Source of the DNA: an uncultured Bacteroidales bacterium
GTDB lineage: Bacteria > Bacteroidota > Bacteroidia > Bacteroidales > UBA4417
NCBI GenBank assembly: GCA_903879715.1
Contig: CAIRMR010000056.1
Location: 1-64,000 of the forward strand
Direction: 5' to 3'
Length of the DNA: 64,000 nucleotides
The stretch's first letter is position 1; each line of letters starts with the position of its first letter. Positions 11,909-23,463 of this stretch are shown here, one piece after another. A program made the translations under genes and the position numbers. Under the pieces are notes generated by a model, which saw only the letters and a list, made by a program, of their open reading frames with translations, was not told where the DNA came from and did no database searches.

Positions 11909-12928
11909 ATGAAAAAGCTCATTAACCTTGCAATTTTACTGGCTTTTGTGCCTTTACTCTTTCTTACTTCCTGCAAAGAAGACGAACCCGATGTGGTAAA
12001 TGCGTATACTACATTAAAATCTTATATGGTTACTAACAATCTCGATCTGCCTGCACTGGCAGTAAGTTGGATAGTTGATCCAAAGTCAACTAACCAGGTT
12101 GGTGGTTGCGTCGATTCGGTTACTGGAACCATTCCGGGTTATACCATTTACGATATCCGTTCAGCATCTGATTTTGCAGCAGGCCACATCAAGAATGCTA
12201 CGAACATTGTTTTAAAAGACATAATTTCTACTGTTACAAATACTGCAATTGCAAAGGATGCTAAAATCCTTGTAGTTTGCGCAACAGGTCAGACCGCCGG
12301 GCAGGCTGTAATGGCATTACGCCTATTGGGCTGGAAAAATGCTGTAGTTTTAAAATGGGGTATGGCTGGCTGGAATGCAACACACAAAGGACTTTGGGTA
12401 GCCAACTCAGGAATTGAAGTTGCGGCAAATGGAAACCTTGCAGAAACAAATCCTGCCAATTGGGTAAAAACAGCAGCTCCTGCTACCGGATCTTTTGATG
12501 AACCTGTCTGGACATCAACTTCTACCGATGGTGCAGCAATATTGCAAGAACGTGTACAGGCTGTATTGGATGCAGGTTTTTCAACAGCTGACGGAGCTGC
12601 AGTGCTGGCTAGCCCTGCTACCTACCAGATTGTTAATTATTGGGTGAGCGCTGACTATTTGACTTTTGGCCATTTCTCAGGTGCTTATAATGTACCAACC
12701 ATCGCACTTGCCGGCGACCTGATTAAAGCATTCGATCCTTCGAAAGAAGAACTGGTATATTGCTATACAGGTCAAACATCGAGTATTGCAACCTTCTGGC
12801 TTAATGTATTAGGATATAAAACTAAAGGTATTGGTTTTGGTGCTAACCGGATGGTATACACACCACTCAAAACTGCTTATAAAGCTACATATCCTGGAGC
12901 TAAAAACTGGGCTGTTGCAACTAATTAA
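11909..12928 (+). CDS. Tandem rhodanese-domain lipoprotein
   Basis: The 339-residue protein carries a lipoprotein signal (FLTSC, lipid Cys 22) and two rhodanese folds. Domain 1 (about 75-160) has YDIRSASDF, HIKNA and catalytic loop CATGQTAG with C124. Domain 2 (about 205-325) has GHFSGAYNVP and loop CYTGQTSS with C285. Both keep the persulfide-forming Cys, unlike the usual inactive/active pair. Rhodaneses move sulfane sulfur from thiosulfate, polysulfide or persulfides to thiol acceptors; here the enzyme would sit in the periplasm or on a membrane surface. It heads an operon with a porin and a second exported rhodanese, so uptake and processing of a sulfur compound is inferred. Confidence 0.85.
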   Translation: MKKLINLAILLAFVPLLFLTSCKEDEPDVVNAYTTLKSYMVTNNLDLPALAVSWIVDPKSTNQVGGCVDSVTGTIPGYTIYDIRSASDFAAGHIKNATNIVLKDIISTVTNTAIAKDAKILVVCATGQTAGQAVMALRLLGWKNAVVLKWGMAGWNATHKGLWVANSGIEVAANGNLAETNPANWVKTAAPATGSFDEPVWTSTSTDGAAILQERVQAVLDAGFSTADGAAVLASPATYQIVNYWVSADYLTFGHFSGAYNVPTIALAGDLIKAFDPSKEELVYCYTGQTSSIATFWLNVLGYKTKGIGFGANRMVYTPLKTAYKATYPGAKNWAVATN

Positions 12929-12950
12929 TAATTTCCTTGTATTAATGCAT

Positions 12951-12984
12951 AAAGGGGAGGAATCTGAAGATTCTTCCCCTTTTA
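12951..12984 (+). terminator. Hairpin with T-run between rhodanese and porin genes
   Basis: AAAGGGGAGGAATCT pairs with AGATTCTTCCCCTTT (one mismatch) and is followed by T-rich sequence. It lies between a rhodanese stop and a porin start 14 bases further on. It may act as a partial terminator or as an RNA-stability element that sets porin level relative to the first gene. Confidence 0.6.
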
Positions 12985-12997
12985 TAAAACCTGTAGA

Positions 12998-14125
12998 ATG
13001 AAAAAAACTCTTTCAATACTTATTATACTAACCTTGTTTGTATTTGCTCGTTCAAATGCACAAGGATGTATGGAGCCGGCATCATCATCTAGCGGAGTTT
13101 CCGTAATTGGCTATATTCAACCTGAATTTAAAATGGCTTACAACGGCGAAAATGCTGATGGCAGCTCAAAAAATGATATGGGTTTCTATTTCCGCAGGGC
13201 TCGTTTGGGAGTTACCGGTAATATCCCTTACGATTTCTCGTATTATGTAATGGCGGAATTCAGTTCGTTCCAGAATGGCCCTTACCTGCTTGATGGTTTT
13301 GTAACCTACAACCGCTTTAAACCTTGGTTTAAAGTATCGATGGGACAGTTCAAAAAACCATTCGGGCTTGAATTAGGATCAACAGGATGTCAGGATTTAT
13401 ATACCATTAACCGTTCTAAAGTAGTGAATGAGCTTACTTCGCCCGACCGCGATCTGGGAATTATGATTAGTGGAAGTACAGGGACAAAGAGATTTTTCGG
13501 TCTGGAAAAGGAAAATGTTTTTTCATACACTTTATCCATTACCAACGGAACCGGCAAAAATGTGTATGATACGGATCGGGCCAAAGACTTTATCGGCCGT
13601 CTGGTAATTTCTCCTTACGACTGGATCAGCATCGGCGGAAGTTACCTGTTCGGGAAACAGAAAAATGCAGATCCAACCATTGCAAAAATGGATGAACGTA
13701 TGCGCTACGGTAGCGATCTGACTTTAAAGAAATACAATTTTATACTGCAAGCTGAATATATTTATGGCGGAGATAAAGGTTCCAAACTTATTGGCGGAGG
13801 TTGTGGCGCAACTCCGGAACTGGTAGCAGGAGACTTTAAAAGTAATGGTTATTTTGCCCAATTGATGTACAACACCAAATGGAAACTGATGCCGCTTGTA
13901 AAATATGAAAGCTATGATCCGGATATGGATAAAGAAGATTTCGACCATAGTGCATACCGTACATCGACTATGACTTTCGGCTTGAATTATTATCCAAACG
14001 ATTGGGTCCGTTTTCAACTGAACTATCTGTCTAATATCGAAAAGAGTTCGTCAACTGACATTGTAAACTACAATGAAACTCCGAATGATATGTTCCTGGT
14101 GCAAATTCAGGTTAAGCTAAATTAA
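12998..14125 (+). CDS. Phosphate-selective porin O/P-like outer-membrane porin
   Basis: The 375-residue protein has a signal peptide (1-21, ending SNAQ) and a beta-barrel with amphipathic aromatic strands. MGFYFRRARLGVTGNI near the N-terminus and YDFSYYVMAEF are typical of the OprO/OprP-like Porin_O_P family in Bacteroidota. The sequence ends with a MFLVQIQVKLN strand. The pore specificity is not encoded in a motif. Its position between two exported rhodaneses suggests passage of an anionic sulfur compound such as thiosulfate rather than phosphate, which is inference. A hairpin in front may tune its expression. Confidence 0.82.
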   Translation: MKKTLSILIILTLFVFARSNAQGCMEPASSSSGVSVIGYIQPEFKMAYNGENADGSSKNDMGFYFRRARLGVTGNIPYDFSYYVMAEFSSFQNGPYLLDGFVTYNRFKPWFKVSMGQFKKPFGLELGSTGCQDLYTINRSKVVNELTSPDRDLGIMISGSTGTKRFFGLEKENVFSYTLSITNGTGKNVYDTDRAKDFIGRLVISPYDWISIGGSYLFGKQKNADPTIAKMDERMRYGSDLTLKKYNFILQAEYIYGGDKGSKLIGGGCGATPELVAGDFKSNGYFAQLMYNTKWKLMPLVKYESYDPDMDKEDFDHSAYRTSTMTFGLNYYPNDWVRFQLNYLSNIEKSSSTDIVNYNETPNDMFLVQIQVKLN

Positions 14126-14178
14126 GGTACATGTTCGCAGTGATATAGAATTCAAAAATAATTTAATAGGAAAAAATC

Positions 14179-15057
14179 ATGAAAAAATTAGTAGTTGCAC
14201 TGGTTAGTATTTTTGCTGCTTTCAGTCTGCATGCGCAGGTTTCCATTACAGCAAAAGATTTTGTTGCTGAACTTAAATCCAACAAGTCGATGATTGTAAT
14301 TGATGTACAGGCTTCGGATGTATATGCAAAACAACATATCCAGGGCGCCATCAATATTCCGCATAAAAGCCTTTATAAAACCGGAGCTGTAGAAGGACAA
14401 TTTCTGGAACCGGCTGATTTAGCTGCCATTTTCGGCAAAAAGGGGGTGAGCAACACTGCAAAAATAATTCTATACGATGATGGTTCTCAGAAATACAACA
14501 GCCGAGTATGGTGGGTGCTAAAATACCTTGGCGCAACTGATGTTACTCTGCTTCATAAAGAAGCAGGACAAATGGAAGCAGCTCGTATACCAATGACAAC
14601 GACACCTGTAACGCTGAAAACTACTACATTTACTACAACGGTAAATACAGATATGAATATCGATATGGCGACATTAAAATCACTTATCGACAATCCTACT
14701 GAAATTTTGCTTGATGCAAGAGAGAAGGACGAATACGAAGGAGTGGACCAGGCAAAAAAGAGCAAAGGTCACTTGCCTGGTGCAGTTTTTATGAATTATA
14801 AGGAAGTGTTAACTGCAACAGGTGCCTATAAATCAAAAGAGGAAATACTGGCTGTTGCAGCTCAGTTTGGGGTTTCGCCTGAGAAAGAGGTAATTGTGTA
14901 TTGCCAGACTGGTATTAAAGCAGCCGTTTTATACATTGCTTTTAAAGAAATTGCAGGACTGAGCAATGTTAAATTATATGCTGGTGCTTATGCCGAATGG
15001 GCTGCCGAACCTGATAATATTTACTGCACTAAAAAACTTGTAAGCGACCATCACTAG
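14179..15057 (+). CDS. Periplasmic tandem-rhodanese sulfurtransferase
   Basis: The 292-residue protein has a cleavable signal peptide (1-20, HAQ). Domain 1 (about 24-140) is a rhodanese fold whose catalytic loop reads YDDGSQ at 99-104, without Cys, as in the structural N-terminal half of thiosulfate sulfurtransferases. Domain 2 (about 160-285) has DAREKDEYEG and active loop CQTGIKA with C242. This is the standard TST/MST layout, but exported. CQTG loops resemble rhodaneses that use thiosulfate or polysulfide rather than mercaptopyruvate. It is the last gene of the operon and is followed by a strong terminator, supporting a three-gene unit with the lipoprotein and the porin. Confidence 0.87.
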   Translation: MKKLVVALVSIFAAFSLHAQVSITAKDFVAELKSNKSMIVIDVQASDVYAKQHIQGAINIPHKSLYKTGAVEGQFLEPADLAAIFGKKGVSNTAKIILYDDGSQKYNSRVWWVLKYLGATDVTLLHKEAGQMEAARIPMTTTPVTLKTTTFTTTVNTDMNIDMATLKSLIDNPTEILLDAREKDEYEGVDQAKKSKGHLPGAVFMNYKEVLTATGAYKSKEEILAVAAQFGVSPEKEVIVYCQTGIKAAVLYIAFKEIAGLSNVKLYAGAYAEWAAEPDNIYCTKKLVSDHH

Positions 15058-15343: not shown

Positions 15344-16165
15344 TTGATTGTACATATGATAATTGAAGAAACGTATGAAGTAATACATGCAAAATATGGC
15401 CAACGGCTAAATGCTGTTACCATCGAAAAACTTGTTGCAGGAGTTTACCTCACAGCCGTAAAATTATCGACCGGCTGTAGTGGTCTTGCGTCCAATGATT
15501 TGAATTCACAGGATAGCTGCACGCATAATCGTAACAGGGGATTCGGCGATTTTACACCCGGACATTTCAAAGGGCAAAAAGTCGCTGACTTATTTGAGAT
15601 TCCCGAACCAACATGTTTCATTAAAACACTGCAACTTGCTGTAATGAATGCTCTTTCGGCTGAACTGCTGGCAGAATCAAAGTTCCGTATTATCGAAAAC
15701 CTTGATCCGATGGAGTTAATTGACTTTTCAGAGAAGAAACAGGTATGCTTAGTTGGCGCATTTTTATCTTACATCAAAAAAATAGCAGCGAGCAATTCGG
15801 TTCTGAACATCATAGAACTGAACGAAAATGCAGTGCCTGATGAATACCGCCGGTATTTTGTTCCTTCACACCTTTCAGAGAAAGCTATTTCCCAATCTGA
15901 TGTTGTGATTATTACCGGTTCTTCGCTGGCCAACAATACATTGGATAAACTTTTGGATGTTGTTCCTGAAAAAGCCAAAGTTATCCTGGTCGGACCAACA
16001 AGTGGCCTCATCCCTGATGTGCTTTTCGCCCGTGGAGTTAATATAGTCGGAGCCACACGTATCACGGATTCCGATAAAATGCTGGAATTAGTCGCCGAAG
16101 GTGCCGCCGGATTTCACCTGTTCAAATCTTGTGCTACGAAAATATGTATTGTTAATGAATCCTGA
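15344..16165 (+). CDS. DUF364/DUF4213 putative heavy-metal chelation protein
   Basis: The protein has 273 residues, or 269 if ATG 15356 (MIIEETYEV) is used. The N-terminal half (about 1-110) fits DUF4213 and the C-terminal half (about 120-265) fits the Rossmann-like DUF364 (VCLVGAFLSYIKK, ITGSSLANNTLD, VILVGPTSGLIPD). DUF364 proteins are predicted to bind metals or cofactors, and some sit beside metal-transport systems; no enzymatic role is established to my knowledge. It overlaps the following membrane/NTPase fusion by 11 bases, so the two are translationally coupled and probably work together, perhaps in metal or cofactor uptake. Confidence 0.75.
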   Translation: MIVHMIIEETYEVIHAKYGQRLNAVTIEKLVAGVYLTAVKLSTGCSGLASNDLNSQDSCTHNRNRGFGDFTPGHFKGQKVADLFEIPEPTCFIKTLQLAVMNALSAELLAESKFRIIENLDPMELIDFSEKKQVCLVGAFLSYIKKIAASNSVLNIIELNENAVPDEYRRYFVPSHLSEKAISQSDVVIITGSSLANNTLDKLLDVVPEKAKVILVGPTSGLIPDVLFARGVNIVGATRITDSDKMLELVAEGAAGFHLFKSCATKICIVNES

Positions 16166-17885
16166 TCGAAAACTTAGTATTACCTGGCTTAAAGCTGCTG
16201 TAGTGGGTTGCCTTTGGGCATCGTCCGAAATTGTGCTGGGCAGTTTTCTTCATAACCTGCGTGTGCCTTTCAGCAGTATTTTTCTCACTTCGATAGGGAT
16301 TATTCTTCTGGTTTCAATCAGTTTTAAATGGAAGGACAAAGGTTTGATATGGAGATCTGGCTTGATCTGTGCTTTAATGAAATCAGTTTCGCCGAGCGCC
16401 GTTATTTTCGGGCCAATGATCGCTATTTTGTCCGAGGCATTATTACTTGAGTTTTCGGTGAGGCTAATCGGGAAAAACATGGTAGGATTTCTGATTGGCA
16501 GCTTGCTGGCCATGTCGTGGAATTTTATGCAGAAGATCGCTAACTATCTTATTTTCTATGGTTTCAACATCCTTGACTTATATGCATCCATGGTCAAATT
16601 TGCTGAAAAGCAGCTCCATATGCATTTTGATACAGTTTGGATGCCTATAATCGTGTTGTGGATTTTCTATTTGTTTTTCGGGTTGGTGTCAGCCGGAATA
16701 GGGATTTATATTGGCAAAACAGCGTTAGCTAAAAGCATTCCTATGCTCAGCGCAGATAAAACCAGAATGGCCGATATCAAATCAAAAAGTAAAACTCCGG
16801 AAATCAGTTACTCGCTGTTGTGGCTTTCATTTAATTTCATGGGAATGATACTGGTGCTGGTACTGATGAATTTCACAGGGATCTACTGGTGGCTTGCAGC
16901 AGGAATTAGTATGATTACGATTTGGGCAGTGCGCTATAAATCTGCGCTCAAACCATTAATGAAACCGAAATTCTGGATATTCTTTGTGGCAATTACCATG
17001 CTTTCCAGTTTCCTGTTTGCCCGGTTTCAATCGGATGGACTTACTCTGGCTGATGGATTGTTAATTGGCCTGCAGATGAATTTCCGCGCAGCTTTGATGG
17101 TTGTTGGGTTTTCGGTGGTTGGTAAAGAGTTGAGCAACCCGCTAATCCGGAATTTCTTTATCCGTACATCTTTCCGCCAACTTCCGCTGGCCCTTGAAAT
17201 TGCATTTGAAACGCTTCCTTTTGTAATTGCCAATGTACCTCCGGTTAAAGATGTTTTCCGAAAACCGGTTGGCGTAATCAGGCAGATTGTTGCCCAATCC
17301 GAATTCTGGCTCGAAAAGGTGGCTCTCACCATGAAGAAAAAAAGCAATGTCATCATAATTACCGGTGAAATTGGCAGCGGAAAAACAACATTGATTTCCG
17401 GAATTTCATCACGGCTTCAAGAATCAGGGTTTAGAACAGGCGGAATTGTTGCTCCCGCAATTTATGAACAGGAGAATAAAACCGGTTACACTGCTATTGA
17501 TATTGCTACGGGCAATAAAATGCAGCTTTCGCAGATTACAGAAATTGAAGGAATGCCACGGGTAGGAAAGTATTTCTTTCTATCTGAAGCTCTTGATTTT
17601 GGACGTAACGCACTTTCTGTAGAAAGAAATCTTGAATCACAGATTGTGCTTATCGACGAAATTGGTGCATGGGAATTGCAAGGCCAGGGCTGGGCTTCAA
17701 GCCTGAATGAATTGATTATAAATTGTGAAATGCCTCTGATAATCACGGTACGTAAAAGTTTCCTCGAACTGGTTATTGAAAACTGGATACTTCAGAACCC
17801 GCTTATCATTCAGGCTCATACAACTTCGGTAAATGATGCGTTTGAGGAAATTATCAAAAGTATTGGAACACCGGAATTCGTTTAA
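16155..17885 (+). CDS. Membrane protein fused to THEP1-type NTPase (ECF-transporter-like fusion)
   Basis: I chose ATG 16155 (MNPDRKLS), which overlaps the DUF364 gene by 11 bases; an upstream ATG at 16101 gives a non-hydrophobic extension. The 576-residue protein has about ten membrane helices. Residues 8-200 resemble a substrate-binding (S) component (KAAVVGCLWASSEIVLGS). Residues 215-385 look like a T component or EcfT/CbiQ-like segment (LLIGLQMNFRAALMVVGF, SFRQLPLALEIAFETLP). Residues 395-570 are a THEP1/NTPase_1 domain with Walker A GEIGSGKTT (404-412) and the diagnostic IDEIGAWEL Walker B. The NTPase call is firm. The transporter parts are inferred from pattern, and the substrate is unknown. 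Confidence 0.65.
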   Translation: MNPDRKLSITWLKAAVVGCLWASSEIVLGSFLHNLRVPFSSIFLTSIGIILLVSISFKWKDKGLIWRSGLICALMKSVSPSAVIFGPMIAILSEALLLEFSVRLIGKNMVGFLIGSLLAMSWNFMQKIANYLIFYGFNILDLYASMVKFAEKQLHMHFDTVWMPIIVLWIFYLFFGLVSAGIGIYIGKTALAKSIPMLSADKTRMADIKSKSKTPEISYSLLWLSFNFMGMILVLVLMNFTGIYWWLAAGISMITIWAVRYKSALKPLMKPKFWIFFVAITMLSSFLFARFQSDGLTLADGLLIGLQMNFRAALMVVGFSVVGKELSNPLIRNFFIRTSFRQLPLALEIAFETLPFVIANVPPVKDVFRKPVGVIRQIVAQSEFWLEKVALTMKKKSNVIIITGEIGSGKTTLISGISSRLQESGFRTGGIVAPAIYEQENKTGYTAIDIATGNKMQLSQITEIEGMPRVGKYFFLSEALDFGRNALSVERNLESQIVLIDEIGAWELQGQGWASSLNELIINCEMPLIITVRKSFLELVIENWILQNPLIIQAHTTSVNDAFEEIIKSIGTPEFV

Positions 17886-20264: not shown

Positions 20265-20289
20265 CGGTGAACTAATGCTCATTATAATT

Positions 20290-20868
20290 ATGCCAAGAGT
20301 TAAAACACTCCGAAAAGTTCTGAATCCACCGCTTATTAAAGGGTTTAAGCCATATGGCCCTGAATCAGGCAATTTGAATCAGGAACCGGTAAATCTTCTC
20401 TTCGAAGAATATGAAGCCTTACGCCTGAGTGATTATGACATGCTTAATCACCATCAGGCATCGGTAATGATGGGGGTTTCGAGGCCAACTTTTACACGGA
20501 TTTACGCTTCTGCCCTTCAAAAAATTGCGAGGGCTTTTGTTGAAGGAAAGCAAATTGCCATCGAAGGAGGCAAGGTTTATTTCGACAGCGATTGGTATCA
20601 ATGTGCCGGATGCGGCTGTAATTTCAATAATCCTGAACGCGAAAAAGTGATTGAAAGCTGCCCTTTATGTGGTACCCGACAAATAATAAGTCATGATTTC
20701 CCGGATGAGACCAATGAAGAGAATGCAAAGCATTGGGAATATGTGTGCGTATGTCCTCAGTGTGGTTTTGAACAGGAACATCAGCTGGGAATTCCCTGCA
20801 ATCATCAGGTTTGCCCTAAATGTACACACAAGATGAAACGAAAAGGAACTCCAGGTTGTAAAATCTAA
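20290..20868 (+). CDS. DUF134 DNA-binding protein with C-terminal zinc ribbons
   Basis: I chose ATG 20290 (MPRVKTLRKV), the conserved DUF134 N-terminus, over ATG 20275. The 192-residue protein has a sigma-70 region-4-like helix-turn-helix (about 45-95, HHQASVMMGVSRPTFTRIY), a first Cys knuckle (CAGCGC then CPLCG) and a second (CVCPQCGFEQ, CNHQVCPKC). The second knuckle resembles that in the protein at 26558 (CAQCGY...HQPGIPCKS), so the two share a module. DUF134 proteins are predicted regulators often found beside NifX/MinD genes in anaerobes. It leads the metal/Fe-S cluster and is probably its regulator. Confidence 0.8.
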   Translation: MPRVKTLRKVLNPPLIKGFKPYGPESGNLNQEPVNLLFEEYEALRLSDYDMLNHHQASVMMGVSRPTFTRIYASALQKIARAFVEGKQIAIEGGKVYFDSDWYQCAGCGCNFNNPEREKVIESCPLCGTRQIISHDFPDETNEENAKHWEYVCVCPQCGFEQEHQLGIPCNHQVCPKCTHKMKRKGTPGCKI

Positions 20869-20880
20869 AATGCCAGAAAT

Positions 20881-21198
20881 ATGAAAATAGCTATTGCATC
20901 AAACGGGAATACATTGGAGTCATGTATAGACTCAACTTTTGCGCGTTGTAATTTTTTCGTAGTGTACGATCCCGAAACAAGGGCGATGGAATTTATTCCA
21001 AATCCGAACAAAGATTTAGAAGAGGGCGCAGGTAGCGCTTCGGTAAAGCTTTTGGAATCGCGCTCAGTACAAAAGATTGTTGCCAGCGAGTTTGGAATGA
21101 AAATCAAGCCCTTGCTGGATAGCCTTAAAATACAGATGATTGTAGTAAAAGGTTCAAAGAAAACAATGAAGGAAATTATGGTAATGTTAAATCATTAG
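20881..21198 (+). CDS. NifX/NifB-type Fe-Mo cofactor-binding domain protein
   Basis: The 105-residue protein has a single dinitrogenase iron-molybdenum-cofactor-binding fold (RNase H-like). It begins MKIAIASNGNTLES, and the usual DxxFGR/H turn is replaced by DSTFARCNFF; GAGSASVKLLE and KIVASEFGMKI follow. Proteins of this fold carry or handle metal clusters; the Desulfovibrio orange protein ORP is a relative with a Mo-Cu cluster. No nitrogenase gene is in the window. It is 12 bases after the DUF134 stop and 4 bases before the next gene. It has one Cys near the turn, unlike the paralogs at 22013 and 42764, which have Cys/His-rich tails. Confidence 0.85.
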   Translation: MKIAIASNGNTLESCIDSTFARCNFFVVYDPETRAMEFIPNPNKDLEEGAGSASVKLLESRSVQKIVASEFGMKIKPLLDSLKIQMIVVKGSKKTMKEIMVMLNH

Positions 21199-21201
21199 GA
21201 A

Positions 21202-21384
21202 ATGCCGCAACTCAATGGAACAGGTCCCGAAGGCAAAGGTGCCGGAACGGGACGCAAATTAGGAAAATGCAGCGAACTTACTGCTGATGAAAAATTAAAA
21301 TCTCTCGGCGAAGGAATGGGTGAAAAACGCAATTCCGGTGGTGGAAAAGGTAAAGGGAAACGCTTAAAAAGTGGCTTGAAATAG
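21202..21384 (+). CDS. Small Gly-rich DUF5320-like protein
   Basis: The 60-residue protein has the N-terminal pattern MPQLNGTGPEGKGAGTGR followed by LGKC. That is the shortest form of the (N/G)xTGPxGxGxxTGRxxGxC signature seen in the two following genes. The C-terminus is Gly/Lys-rich. Such proteins accompany NifX and MinD-ferredoxin genes in many anaerobes, and their role is unknown. The start is 4 bases after the upstream stop. Confidence 0.65.
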   Translation: MPQLNGTGPEGKGAGTGRKLGKCSELTADEKLKSLGEGMGEKRNSGGGKGKGKRLKSGLK

Positions 21385-21412
21385 AATTAACAATATTAAA
21401 AAGGAGGTTATT

Positions 21413-21619
21413 ATGCCAGGATTTAACCAAACCGGTCCAGCTGGGCAAGGCCCAATGACAGGTAGGGGAATTGGTATATGCAACCCTTCGCATGATAGAA
21501 AGACGAATGATGCTATTAAAAATGCAATAGTTGGATTGGTATCTGTCCTGATCGTCGGCTTAGCAGAAATGCTTTGGAATAAGATAAAGGAAAAGCGTTT
21601 AAAACACGAACTAAAATAG
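21413..21619 (+). CDS. Small DUF5320-like protein with a membrane segment
   Basis: The 68-residue protein starts MPGFNQTGPAGQGPMTGR then GIGIC, the conserved leader signature, and continues into a hydrophobic helix (AIVGLVSVLIVGLAEMLW) with a basic tail. This suggests a single-pass membrane protein with the Gly-rich signature on one side. It has a strong Shine-Dalgarno, AGGAGG 8 bases ahead of the ATG, unusual in this window. The second gene downstream carries almost the same leader. Confidence 0.7.
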   Translation: MPGFNQTGPAGQGPMTGRGIGICNPSHDRKTNDAIKNAIVGLVSVLIVGLAEMLWNKIKEKRLKHELK

Positions 21620-21645
21620 TTTAACAATTTAAAATGGAGGTTATT

Positions 21646-21951
21646 ATGCCTGGTTTTAATCAAAAAGGCCCCTTAGGACAAGGTTCTATGACAGGGCGAA
21701 GAATGGGACGCTGCACCAATTTCGGTGCAAATCAAAAGAACGAAATCGCAAATCCTGAAACAGCTCCGGATAAAAAAACAGAAGAAGAAACCCTTCCTGA
21801 AAATAATTCCGTAGCAGGACAGGGCTTAGGCCGTGGAAGAGGAGGAGTAGGTCGGGGAATGGGCTTGGGCCGAGGAATGGGCTTAGGTCGTGGACAAGGT
21901 GGTTCAGGCCGTGGAATGGGGCGACAGAATCGTTTCAGAGATGGCGTTTAA
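21646..21951 (+). CDS. DUF5320-like protein with GRGMGLGRG repeats
   Basis: The start is ATG 21646 (MPGFNQKGPLGQGSMTGR), because the Shine-Dalgarno TGGAGG lies directly in front; an in-frame ATG at 21634 overlaps that site. The 101-residue product shares its first 25 residues with the protein at 21413. A polar linker follows, then a Gly/Arg-rich tail with tandem GRGMGL units. It is soluble, with one Cys (RCTNF). A terminator-like hairpin lies 10 bases after the stop. Function is unknown, and a metal- or protein-binding scaffold is a guess. Confidence 0.7.
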   Translation: MPGFNQKGPLGQGSMTGRRMGRCTNFGANQKNEIANPETAPDKKTEEETLPENNSVAGQGLGRGRGGVGRGMGLGRGMGLGRGQGGSGRGMGRQNRFRDGV

Positions 21952-21960
21952 AAAAAACCG

Positions 21961-21986
21961 GGAGGGGAAAACTGCCCCTCCTTTTT
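21961..21986 (+). terminator. GC-rich hairpin with T-run
   Basis: GGAGGGG pairs perfectly with CCCCTCC around the loop AAAACTG, and five T follow. It lies between the third DUF5320-like gene and the next NifX gene, so it may split the cluster into two transcripts or attenuate it. Confidence 0.75.
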
Positions 21987-22012
21987 ACATAATTTAATAA
22001 ATACGAAAAATC

Positions 22013-22384
22013 ATGAATAAATGTATTGCTATTCCTCTGGAAGATGGAGTTTTATGTGCTCATTTCGGGCATTGCCAGCAATTTGCCATTGTTGAAGTTA
22101 AAGACGGTGTAATTACCGATGTTAAAGAAGTAACGCCGCCCGAACATGTGCCGGGGCTTTATCCGCGCTGGGTTGCCCAGTTTGGTGTAACCGATGTTAT
22201 TGCCGGTGGAATGGGGCAACAGGCAATTATGCTTTTCAACGAGCAAAATATCAATGCTTTTGTGGGAGCGCCTACCAAAGCGGCAAAGGAACTGGTTACC
22301 GATTTTATCGCAGGCAATTTACAACTGAGCGCCAATTATTGCAACCACGAGGAAGGGCACGATCACGGACATCAATGTAATTAG
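22013..22384 (+). CDS. NifX/NifB-type protein with His/Cys-rich tail
   Basis: The 123-residue protein has the cofactor-binding fold (CAHFGHCQQF with the DHFGH-like metal turn, VIAGGMGQQAIMLFN, INAFVGAP). Its tail, about 25 residues, ends CNHEEGHDHGHQCN and looks like a metal-binding extension. Homologs are annotated as dinitrogenase iron-molybdenum cofactor-binding proteins and occur in Orp/MinD clusters. It is closest in layout to the protein at 42764, which also ends in a His/Cys tail. The gene lies downstream of a terminator-like hairpin and upstream of repeat-rich DNA. Confidence 0.87.
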   Translation: MNKCIAIPLEDGVLCAHFGHCQQFAIVEVKDGVITDVKEVTPPEHVPGLYPRWVAQFGVTDVIAGGMGQQAIMLFNEQNINAFVGAPTKAAKELVTDFIAGNLQLSANYCNHEEGHDHGHQCN

Positions 22385-22415
22385 GGTTTGTAATCAAACT
22401 TGGTAAATCCTGAAA

Positions 22416-22512
22416 TTTACGAATTACGAATTACGATTTACGAATTACGATTTTTTTCAGCGAGTTATGTATCAATCATACCTCGTCAATCGTACCTCGT
22501 CAATCATAAATA
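22416..22512. repeat. TTACGAATTACGA-type and CCTCGTCAAT-type short tandem repeats
   Basis: The stretch 22416-22453 is built from TTACGAAT and TTACGATT units. It is followed at about 22475-22510 by three CCTCGTCAATC(A/G)TA-type units (the first partial). The TTACGA family recurs at 62812-62860 in the intergenic DNA between the two YeeE/YedE genes. No coding potential is seen. Confidence 0.7.
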
Positions 22513-22563
22513 AAAATATCCCCTGACTTTATTCACAGACACTGATTAAGCATTACTATAACC

Positions 22564-23463
22564 ATGGATAATCGTTGCAAAACCTGTTTTACAAATAATT
22601 ACGACAAGCTTCTGAAAAAAAATCCATTATCGGGATGTGAAGCTTTGGCGTTTTGTGGCTTTTTTTATCGTTTGCTGGATAACGATGATAATAATTCAAG
22701 TCCCGAAATCCAGCGGGTTTTACAACATAAGTTGCGGGAGATGAATGGTGTAGTCGATCCTTATTATAAGGAAAAGCAACAAAGCAACCGGATCGCATTT
22801 AAGTTATACAACGAGTGGAAGCCGAAAGTGCTTGCATCCGACAATCCTTTTGATCTGGCGCTGCGCTTAGCCATTGCCGGAAATATCATGGATTATGGTG
22901 TCGATCATGTGTTTGATGTTCAGAAAACGATTAAAAAATCCTTACACACAGAATTTGCAATCGATCATTCAGCCGCATTAAAGCAGCGTATTGCGAAGGC
23001 TAAAAGCATTTTATACTTAGGCGATAATGCAGGTGAAATTGTGTTTGATAAACTTTTTATTGAGACAATTATGCATCCTAATGTGATTTTTGCCGTAAAA
23101 GATGCGCCTATTCTGAATGATGTCACCTTTAATGTTGCGGAAGATGTTGGTATGAATGAAGTAGCTGATGTTATTTCAAATGGTTACGATGCCTCATCCA
23201 CTTTATTGAATAAATGCAGCAAGGAATTTCTTGATGTGTATCATTCGGCCGACCTGATTATTTCGAAAGGCCAGGGAAACCTGGAGGGATTGATTAACGA
23301 AAAAGACCCGCGAATATTTTTCCTGTTTATGGTGAAATGCGAAGTTATTGCCGAACGGGTTGGGGTCGAAAAAGGAAGTCTGGTAGTTTTTAACCAGGTT
23401 AGTGAGTTAACACATGTGAGGCAAGAATCCTCAAAAACCCTGAAGTCAACCTGGATAAGCTAA
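22564..23463 (+). CDS. DUF89 (ARMT1-like) damage-control phosphatase-type protein
   Basis: The 299-residue protein has an N-terminal CxxC (CKTCF at 5-9), a helical cap and an alpha/beta core with the DUF89 metal-site motif YLGDNAGEIVFDKLF. The distal ISKGQGNLEGL motif is also present. DUF89 members dephosphorylate damaged sugar phosphates or cofactors using divalent metal, and the CxxC-bearing prokaryotic subgroup is frequent beside Fe-S and metal genes. The substrate here is unknown. The gene follows a repeat-rich gap and precedes another repeat array, then the CGGC gene, all on the plus strand. Confidence 0.85.
   Translation: MDNRCKTCFTNNYDKLLKKNPLSGCEALAFCGFFYRLLDNDDNNSSPEIQRVLQHKLREMNGVVDPYYKEKQQSNRIAFKLYNEWKPKVLASDNPFDLALRLAIAGNIMDYGVDHVFDVQKTIKKSLHTEFAIDHSAALKQRIAKAKSILYLGDNAGEIVFDKLFIETIMHPNVIFAVKDAPILNDVTFNVAEDVGMNEVADVISNGYDASSTLLNKCSKEFLDVYHSADLIISKGQGNLEGLINEKDPRIFFLFMVKCEVIAERVGVEKGSLVVFNQVSELTHVRQESSKTLKSTWIS

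Follow-up and report, generated by a model that had tools for sequence, protein, structure and literature searches.

An ECF-like membrane protein fused to a THEP1-type NTPase in Bacteroidales and its association with molybdenum cofactor genes

Results

A membrane protein-NTPase fusion overlapping a DUF364 gene

The stretch of DNA analyzed here (hereafter the window) comprises positions 1 to 64,000 of the forward strand of contig CAIRMR010000056.1 (GenBank assembly GCA_903879715.1), from an uncultured Bacteroidales bacterium. It encodes a 576-residue protein in which two membrane domains, putatively related to the S and T components of energy-coupling factor (ECF) transporters, precede a THEP1-type nucleoside triphosphatase (NTPase). 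We call this protein, together with relatives in which the same modules are encoded separately, the S-T-THEP1 system, and we report that its genes lie in the context of the molybdenum/tungsten-pterin cofactor (Moco), which is the new element here. The features of the locus are as follows.

15356..16165, + strand: DUF364 (PF04016) protein with N-terminal DUF4213 (PF13938), 269 residues (Pfam profiles)
16155..17885, + strand: S-T-THEP1 fusion protein, 576 residues (reading frame and domain profiles)
16155..16165, + strand: overlap of the DUF364/DUF4213 gene and the fusion gene, 11 bases (read from the sequence)
16179..16730, + strand: S-like domain, residues 9-192, six predicted membrane helices (AlphaFold2 and VIA; weak PF09819/PF09605 matches)
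16227..16268, + strand: S motif E25-x3-G29-x3-H33-x4-P38 (alignment of S sequences, n = 28)
16812..17333, + strand: T-like domain, residues 220-393, with invariant G305 and R311 (low-confidence AlphaFold2 helices; T alignment)
17346..17870, + strand: THEP1-type NTPase domain, residues 398-572 (PF03266; structure matches to 1ye8 and 2i3b)
17364..17387, + strand: Walker A, GEIGSGKT, residues 404-411 (GKT or GKS in 37/37 sequences checked)
17652..17678, + strand: Walker B region, IDEIGAWEL, residues 500-508 (DE in 37/37 sequences checked)

The DUF364/DUF4213 gene has its first in-frame ATG at 15356, with a TTG upstream at 15344, and stops at 16165; its product matches PF04016 (E = 1.9e-40; 138.3 bits against a cut-off of 23) and PF13938 (E = 6e-7). 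For the fusion gene, which stops at 17885, the ATG at 16155 is the likeliest start (a GTG lies upstream at 16101). The 11-base overlap reported by the original prediction is thus present, and the coupling is real but lineage-specific, since a DUF364 gene adjoins the system, upstream of the fusion, in only 11 of the 52 loci that we compared. Matches to the membrane part, or matches cut by a contig end, were found in 27 of 60 genomes of the same genus or order (one more, G034, matched in THEP1 only), and relatives of the fusion occur at 12 loci in the genome contigs searched, one of them deltaproteobacterial, indicating that the fusion is real and not a chance joining. The viral contigs searched contained none.

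The NTPase and membrane domains

The C-terminal domain matched PF03266 (NTPase_1; E = 6.9e-25; 88.3 bits against a cut-off of 23.9) and PRK13695 (E = 2.7e-27), and its model matched the structures 1ye8 from A. aeolicus (Z = 17.5) and human 2i3b (Z = 15.5). The THEP1-type P-loop and IDEIGAWEL motif recognized earlier from the letters therefore stand, with profile, fold and both Walker motifs in agreement. Although the fold and Walker motifs are those of other PF03266 NTPases, 1ye8 and 2i3b are free-standing proteins, whereas in this system the THEP1 domain comes with an S-T membrane module, either in one chain or as a gene alongside.

Ahead of the NTPase, the full-length AlphaFold2 model contains about 6 + 6 membrane helices, for which the "about ten" given previously was a fair count; the order along the chain is a six-helix S-like domain, a loop, the T-like membrane domain and the THEP1 NTPase. 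Residues 1-390 had no Pfam or NCBIfam match at E ≤ 1 among the best 25 of 30 and 45 rows. When the S domain was modelled alone, six of the seven best VIA rows were ECF S components, led by 5edl (Z = 10.2 over 161 residues; 3.4 Å) and followed by 3p5n (8.6), 5kbw (8.1), 4dve (8.1), 5kc4 (8.0) and 5kc0 (7.7); ThiT ranked eighth (Z = 6.7). Scanned singly, four of 28 S sequences weakly matched PF09819 (best E = 5e-4) and four weakly matched PF09605 (best E = 0.008). These were the two recurrent Pfam families among the 28, and both are ECF S-type families. Within the S motif, E, G and P were invariant and H nearly so across the 28 sequences. An ECF S-component-like fold for residues 9-192 is thus supported, albeit by a low-confidence model; this agrees with the S-like region first proposed, and the unrelated membrane fold that would have spoken against it was not seen.

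Other searches contributed little to the membrane part. Foldseek with the full-length model returned only THEP1 as significant, the membrane part being swamped, and searches of PDB sequences with the S and T profiles gave nothing relevant; with profile A2 it was the NTPase end that aligned among the matches listed. PF12822, with weak matches only, did not serve as an S profile. Its sole match in the window genome (G000:C101:9885-10304, locus L137; 29 bits, below the cut-off) falls in the membrane portion of a 567-residue protein resembling a sensor more than an ECF S component.

For the T-like domain, the G and R corresponding to G305 and R311 were invariant in 24 T sequences, and the Pfam family that recurred most often, with weak matches, was CbiQ (7 of the 24, best E = 0.016; next family, 4). 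Profile alignment with hhalign against 20 CbiQ sequences of the same phylum gave E = 0.01 with 28 T sequences and 0.035 with 24, aligning the region G..GL.MN.RA; with the 24 sequences the score was 19.7 vs. ≤13.5 in 30 reversed-and-rotated controls. The EcfT-like region of the original prediction is therefore suggestive only, a weak likeness to CbiQ/EcfT at the profile level in a domain whose model is of low confidence.

A candidate replacement for the ABC motor

According to PMC3246461, T units contact and dock the ATP-binding cassette (ABC) ATPase through Ala-Arg-Gly/Ser signatures. By a simple motif match, these signatures were found in the C-terminal third of 0/24 T domains vs. 13/20 CbiQ sequences. 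An ABC-type motif pair lay within eight genes in 3 of 52 loci (a motif scan of neighborhoods, not of whole genomes), and a CbiQ profile search of the window genome returned no match. The architecture, which resembles ECF in S and probably in T, thus departs from the definition of an ECF transporter in its A unit. The earlier proposal that THEP1 serves as the energizer fits the loss of docking signatures, the scarcity of ABC neighbors, the missing CbiQ and the co-occurrence of S, T and THEP1; we consider it somewhat probable that THEP1 would act as the motor.

Modules are shuffled yet stay in company

A single S-T-THEP1 chain is encoded at 27 of the 52 loci, the window included, and at one more (L065) that is cut by a contig end. 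Four loci carry the reverse order, THEP1-S (L103, L104, L105, L113), and three have separate genes for S, T, a TonB receptor and THEP1 in a row (L098, L099, L100). An S-like protein is encoded beside a separate THEP1 at L106-L110, L114, L115 and L063. The remaining arrangements are S-T fusions without THEP1 (L058, L059, L060), S, T and TonB receptor genes without an adjacent THEP1 (L101, L102), a lone S (L111) and lone THEP1 genes (L062, L064, L112). That S, T and THEP1 are shuffled and yet kept in company suggests that the modules act together. An NTPase always separable from the membrane part was not what we found, though at L062 and L112 a lone THEP1 stands beside Moco genes. A TonB receptor lay within two genes of the system in 10 of 52 loci and at any distance in 11 of 52 (vs. 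2 of 40 control regions; p = 0.035).

The proteins of about 365 residues at L106-L110, L114 and L115 had been considered as S-T fusions and were dropped, having no match to the T hidden Markov model. The THEP1-S proteins of L103, L104, L105 and L113 (468-501 residues) had no Moco neighbors among our probes; at L103 and L113 the preceding gene appears by eye to be PtsI-like, and a different substrate is possible there.

Moco genes often neighbor the system

We searched the neighborhoods with probes for Psr-, Nap-, type II and xanthine dehydrogenase (XDH)-type molybdoenzymes (subtype names assigned by us), MobA/MocA, XdhC-MocA, MoeA and MogA, and compared them with 40 control regions placed at arbitrary coordinates in the same genomes. 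Moco neighbors were present at 27/52 system loci vs. 3/40 control regions (p = 4e-6), in a comparison of loci that are unequal in length (two controls are <5 kb) and not phylogenetically independent. With the eight loci that supplied probes removed, the counts were 19/44 vs. 3/40 (p = 2e-4).

Pfam assignments illustrate this context. L048 has a TonB receptor, DUF364, the fusion, MoeA and a MogA-like gene in a row, in a genome (G035) with no MoaA or MoaC match; MobA-like neighbors occur at L055 and L062, MocA-like ones at L052 and L112, and molybdopterin oxidoreductases at L098 and L100. The 64-kb window itself held no Moco neighbor of the system by these probes; a molybdopterin oxidoreductase is encoded at 65809-67065 of the contig, just past the window end. 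The metal chelation first predicted for DUF364 was too vague, in that the context is specifically that of the molybdenum/tungsten-pterin cofactor.

At L063:4033-9633 (genome G029), an XDH-type gene string contains an XdhC-MocA fusion, THEP1 and a standalone 229-residue match to the S profile. The same genome carries a separate S-T fusion at L058.

Nearly all genomes with the system have molybdoenzymes

The genome sample comprised the 60 genus/order genomes (G000-G059, where G000 is the window genome) and 20 phylum genomes picked for having the system; the counts over 80 genomes do not include G106, G191 and G235, which also have the system and came from the same search of the phylum. Any match except that of G034 counted as positive, and some positives (G006, G008, G055, G059) rest on contig-cut or split matches. 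A Moco enzyme was scored from PF00384 at ≥80 bits (excluding weaker, NuoG-like matches) or from PF02738, AOR-type tungsten enzymes lying outside the search; this threshold and that for ModB (≥125 bits, in a gap from 128 to 68 bits) were set by us.

Among the 60 genomes, a Moco enzyme was present in 27/27 with the system vs. 15/33 without it (p = 1.4e-6), and the system was absent from all 18 genomes that lack such an enzyme. Since the genomes are mutually related, the p values are optimistic. Moco enzymes were also found in 19 of the 20 added phylum genomes. MoaC was present in 16 and MoeA in 19 of the 27 system genomes. The system and Moco enzymes occurred with no MoaA, MoaC or MoeA match in eight of the 60 genomes (G002, G022, G025, G027, G028, G029, G055, G059) and in 10 of the 20 (G152, G073, G275, G283, G183, G137, G141, G129, G090, G175), G073 having a weak MoaA-type match (E = 3e-4); MoeA without MoaC or MoaA was found in G004, G035, G046, G110 and G065. 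G183, a single 3.74-Mb contig with two system loci (L102 and L108), encodes several PF00384 oxidoreductases and two XDH-type enzymes with no match to MoaA, MoaC or MoeA.

ModB, of the ModABC molybdate transporter, tracked MoaC (17/25 genomes with MoaC vs. 2/17 without; p = 4e-4) and did not track the system (11/16 vs. 6/9 among MoaC genomes). We read these distributions as suggesting that some carriers obtain the cofactor, metal included, from outside.

Discussion

The reading that we favor, tentatively and with slightly less than even confidence, is that the system resembles an ECF transporter, uses THEP1 as its motor and imports molybdopterin or Moco. Taken by parts, import as such is quite probable, and a ligand of the Moco/molybdopterin type is evenly poised, while a Mo/W oxyanion or metallophore is doubtful. 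In the favored mechanism, the TonB receptor encoded alongside in several relatives would carry the substrate across the outer membrane, the S-like domain of the fusion, sitting in the inner membrane, would bind a small cofactor-type substrate, and the T-like domain would couple this binding to NTP hydrolysis by THEP1, which would drive release in place of the EcfA ABC ATPases. Imported molybdopterin or Moco would then feed MogA/MoeA, MobA/MocA and the neighboring molybdoenzymes, and in some lineages DUF364 may process the imported chelate. The broadest version, an undescribed class in which ECF-like subunits and a non-ABC THEP1 NTPase import the ready-made cofactor (or molybdopterin), assisted in some lineages by a TonB receptor of their own, and so let bacteria lacking Moco biosynthesis run molybdoenzymes, is unlikely to hold as a whole. 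If it did, the ECF motor would be swappable, though the ABC motor is what defines an ECF transporter; THEP1 NTPases would gain a concrete job; and there would be a bacterial salvage route for Moco, so that, with Moco or molybdopterin as the cargo, a cofactor that each cell is generally assumed to make for itself would pass between bacteria or be scavenged by them.

The system resembles group I ECF transporters (BioMNY, CbiMNQO) in joining S-like and T-like domains with a nucleotide-binding partner, often in one operon and in a cofactor or metal context. Unlike them, it has a THEP1-type NTPase instead of an ABC ATPase, T domains without Ala-Arg-Gly signatures, S-T-THEP1 often in one chain and a TonB receptor in some gene strings. 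Its DUF364 protein shares the PF04016 domain with Dhaf4260 (3l5o) and differs in being translationally coupled to the S-T-THEP1 protein; a metal and pterin context, with action on pterin-like chelators, was already proposed for this family in the pertinent text of PMC2954201. ModABC transporters serve the same enzymes, and their distribution differs, ModB tracking MoaC. Their architecture also differs from that of S-T-THEP1. Uptake of molybdopterin by bacteria has likewise been suggested, in a discussion remark of PMC12282271, for outer-membrane proteins of the type XI secretion system, which are different proteins, proteobacterial and confined to the outer membrane. In open-access PubMed Central, we found on bacterial Moco import only this remark and the C. 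elegans work of PMC9793310, no paper linking THEP1 with ECF or DUF364, and, in searches that also covered DUF2478 and non-ABC ECF transporters, no description of an S-T-THEP1-type system.

Several observations weigh against Moco import by an ECF-like protein. On the structural side, the S-alone model has a predicted local distance difference test (pLDDT) score of only 57.5 and is poorer than the same region inside the full-length model, pMMO ranked among the ECF S components (Z = 9.9), and a Z of 10 can be reached by helical bundles by chance; we therefore give the recurrence of the ECF S family more weight than any single Z. VIA on the full-length model also matched the S region to Lnt (Z = 7.9), a match that did not recur among the rows listed when this domain was modelled alone; an Lnt-like domain was not adopted because the S-alone model gave ECF S components. 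No THEP1 stands beside the S-T fusion in G022 and G029, nor at L101 and L102. At the genome level, the system occurs in 16/25 of the Moco-enzyme genomes with MoaC vs. 11/17 of those without (42 genomes; p = 1.0) and is thus not confined to seeming auxotrophs. In the window genome itself MoaC, MoeA and a short MoaA-like match were found, and it seems capable of Moco synthesis. The system is also missing from six genomes that have a Moco enzyme but no MoaC; three of the six are at least 90% complete, including G034 with its lone THEP1. G078 has the system with no Moco enzyme found by PF00384 or PF02738, AOR-type enzymes not having been searched. Finally, MoaE, the large subunit of molybdopterin synthase, was found in only 7/80 genomes vs. 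32/80 for MoaC, many MoaC-bearing genomes lacking it, and was dropped as a Moco marker; non-orthologous Moco enzymes may thus exist in this phylum, and the lack of a MoaA, MoaC or MoeA match need not mean auxotrophy.

A serious rival, if a fairly unlikely one, keeps the same S-T-THEP1 importer and makes molybdate, tungstate or their metallophore complex the substrate, the Moco context then reflecting the metal and DUF364 handling the chelate. ECF S components for Ni and Co exist. The window genome, having MoaC and MoeA, had no strong ModB match (the best, in a 409-residue frame, scored 58.6 bits), and PMC2954201 reports homologs of DUF364 close to genes for the transport of tungstate, molybdate and vanadium. 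In genomes without MoeA, however, the known route for inserting imported molybdate is unavailable, the neighboring TonB receptors suit a larger ligand, and the system does not replace ModB among MoaC genomes. Because ModB shows no anticorrelation with the system, molybdate uptake was not adopted as the sole explanation.

It is improbable that S-T works without a THEP1 motor, either unaided or on another source of energy, and that THEP1 is a cytosolic enzyme of Moco maturation (such as a MobB-like nucleotide-binding protein or a substrate-trapping kinase) fused to the membrane part for channelling. Lone S components are said to work without a motor, and the S-T fusions that lack THEP1, the lone THEP1 genes beside MobA/MocA-like genes (L062, L112) and the THEP1 in the XDH operon of L063 would all suit such a role; similarity to MobB is weak (PF03205, E = 0.0023, below the cut-off). 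Against it, most loci have S and THEP1 in one chain or side by side, in both domain orders, L063 too has an S-like gene beside its THEP1, and the T domain has been retained despite the loss of its ABC-docking signatures. A membrane sensor or a scaffold for molybdoenzyme maturation, with no transport at all, would suit the location beside molybdoenzyme genes and the indirect case for transport, and is very improbable given the S-component fold, the T-like domain and the TonB receptors in the same gene strings.

Other genes in the window

Two further gene groups flank the locus. At 11909-15057, a rhodanese-domain protein, a Porin_O_P protein and a double-rhodanese protein are encoded in a row that is conserved in L034 and L038; the Porin_O_P protein is weakly similar to ExtI, known from selenite/tellurite operons, and the double-rhodanese protein weakly similar to ExtH. 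At 20275-23463 lie genes for a DUF134 regulator, two Nitro_FeMo-Co domain proteins and an ARMT1-like phosphatase, a group mostly conserved in L034.

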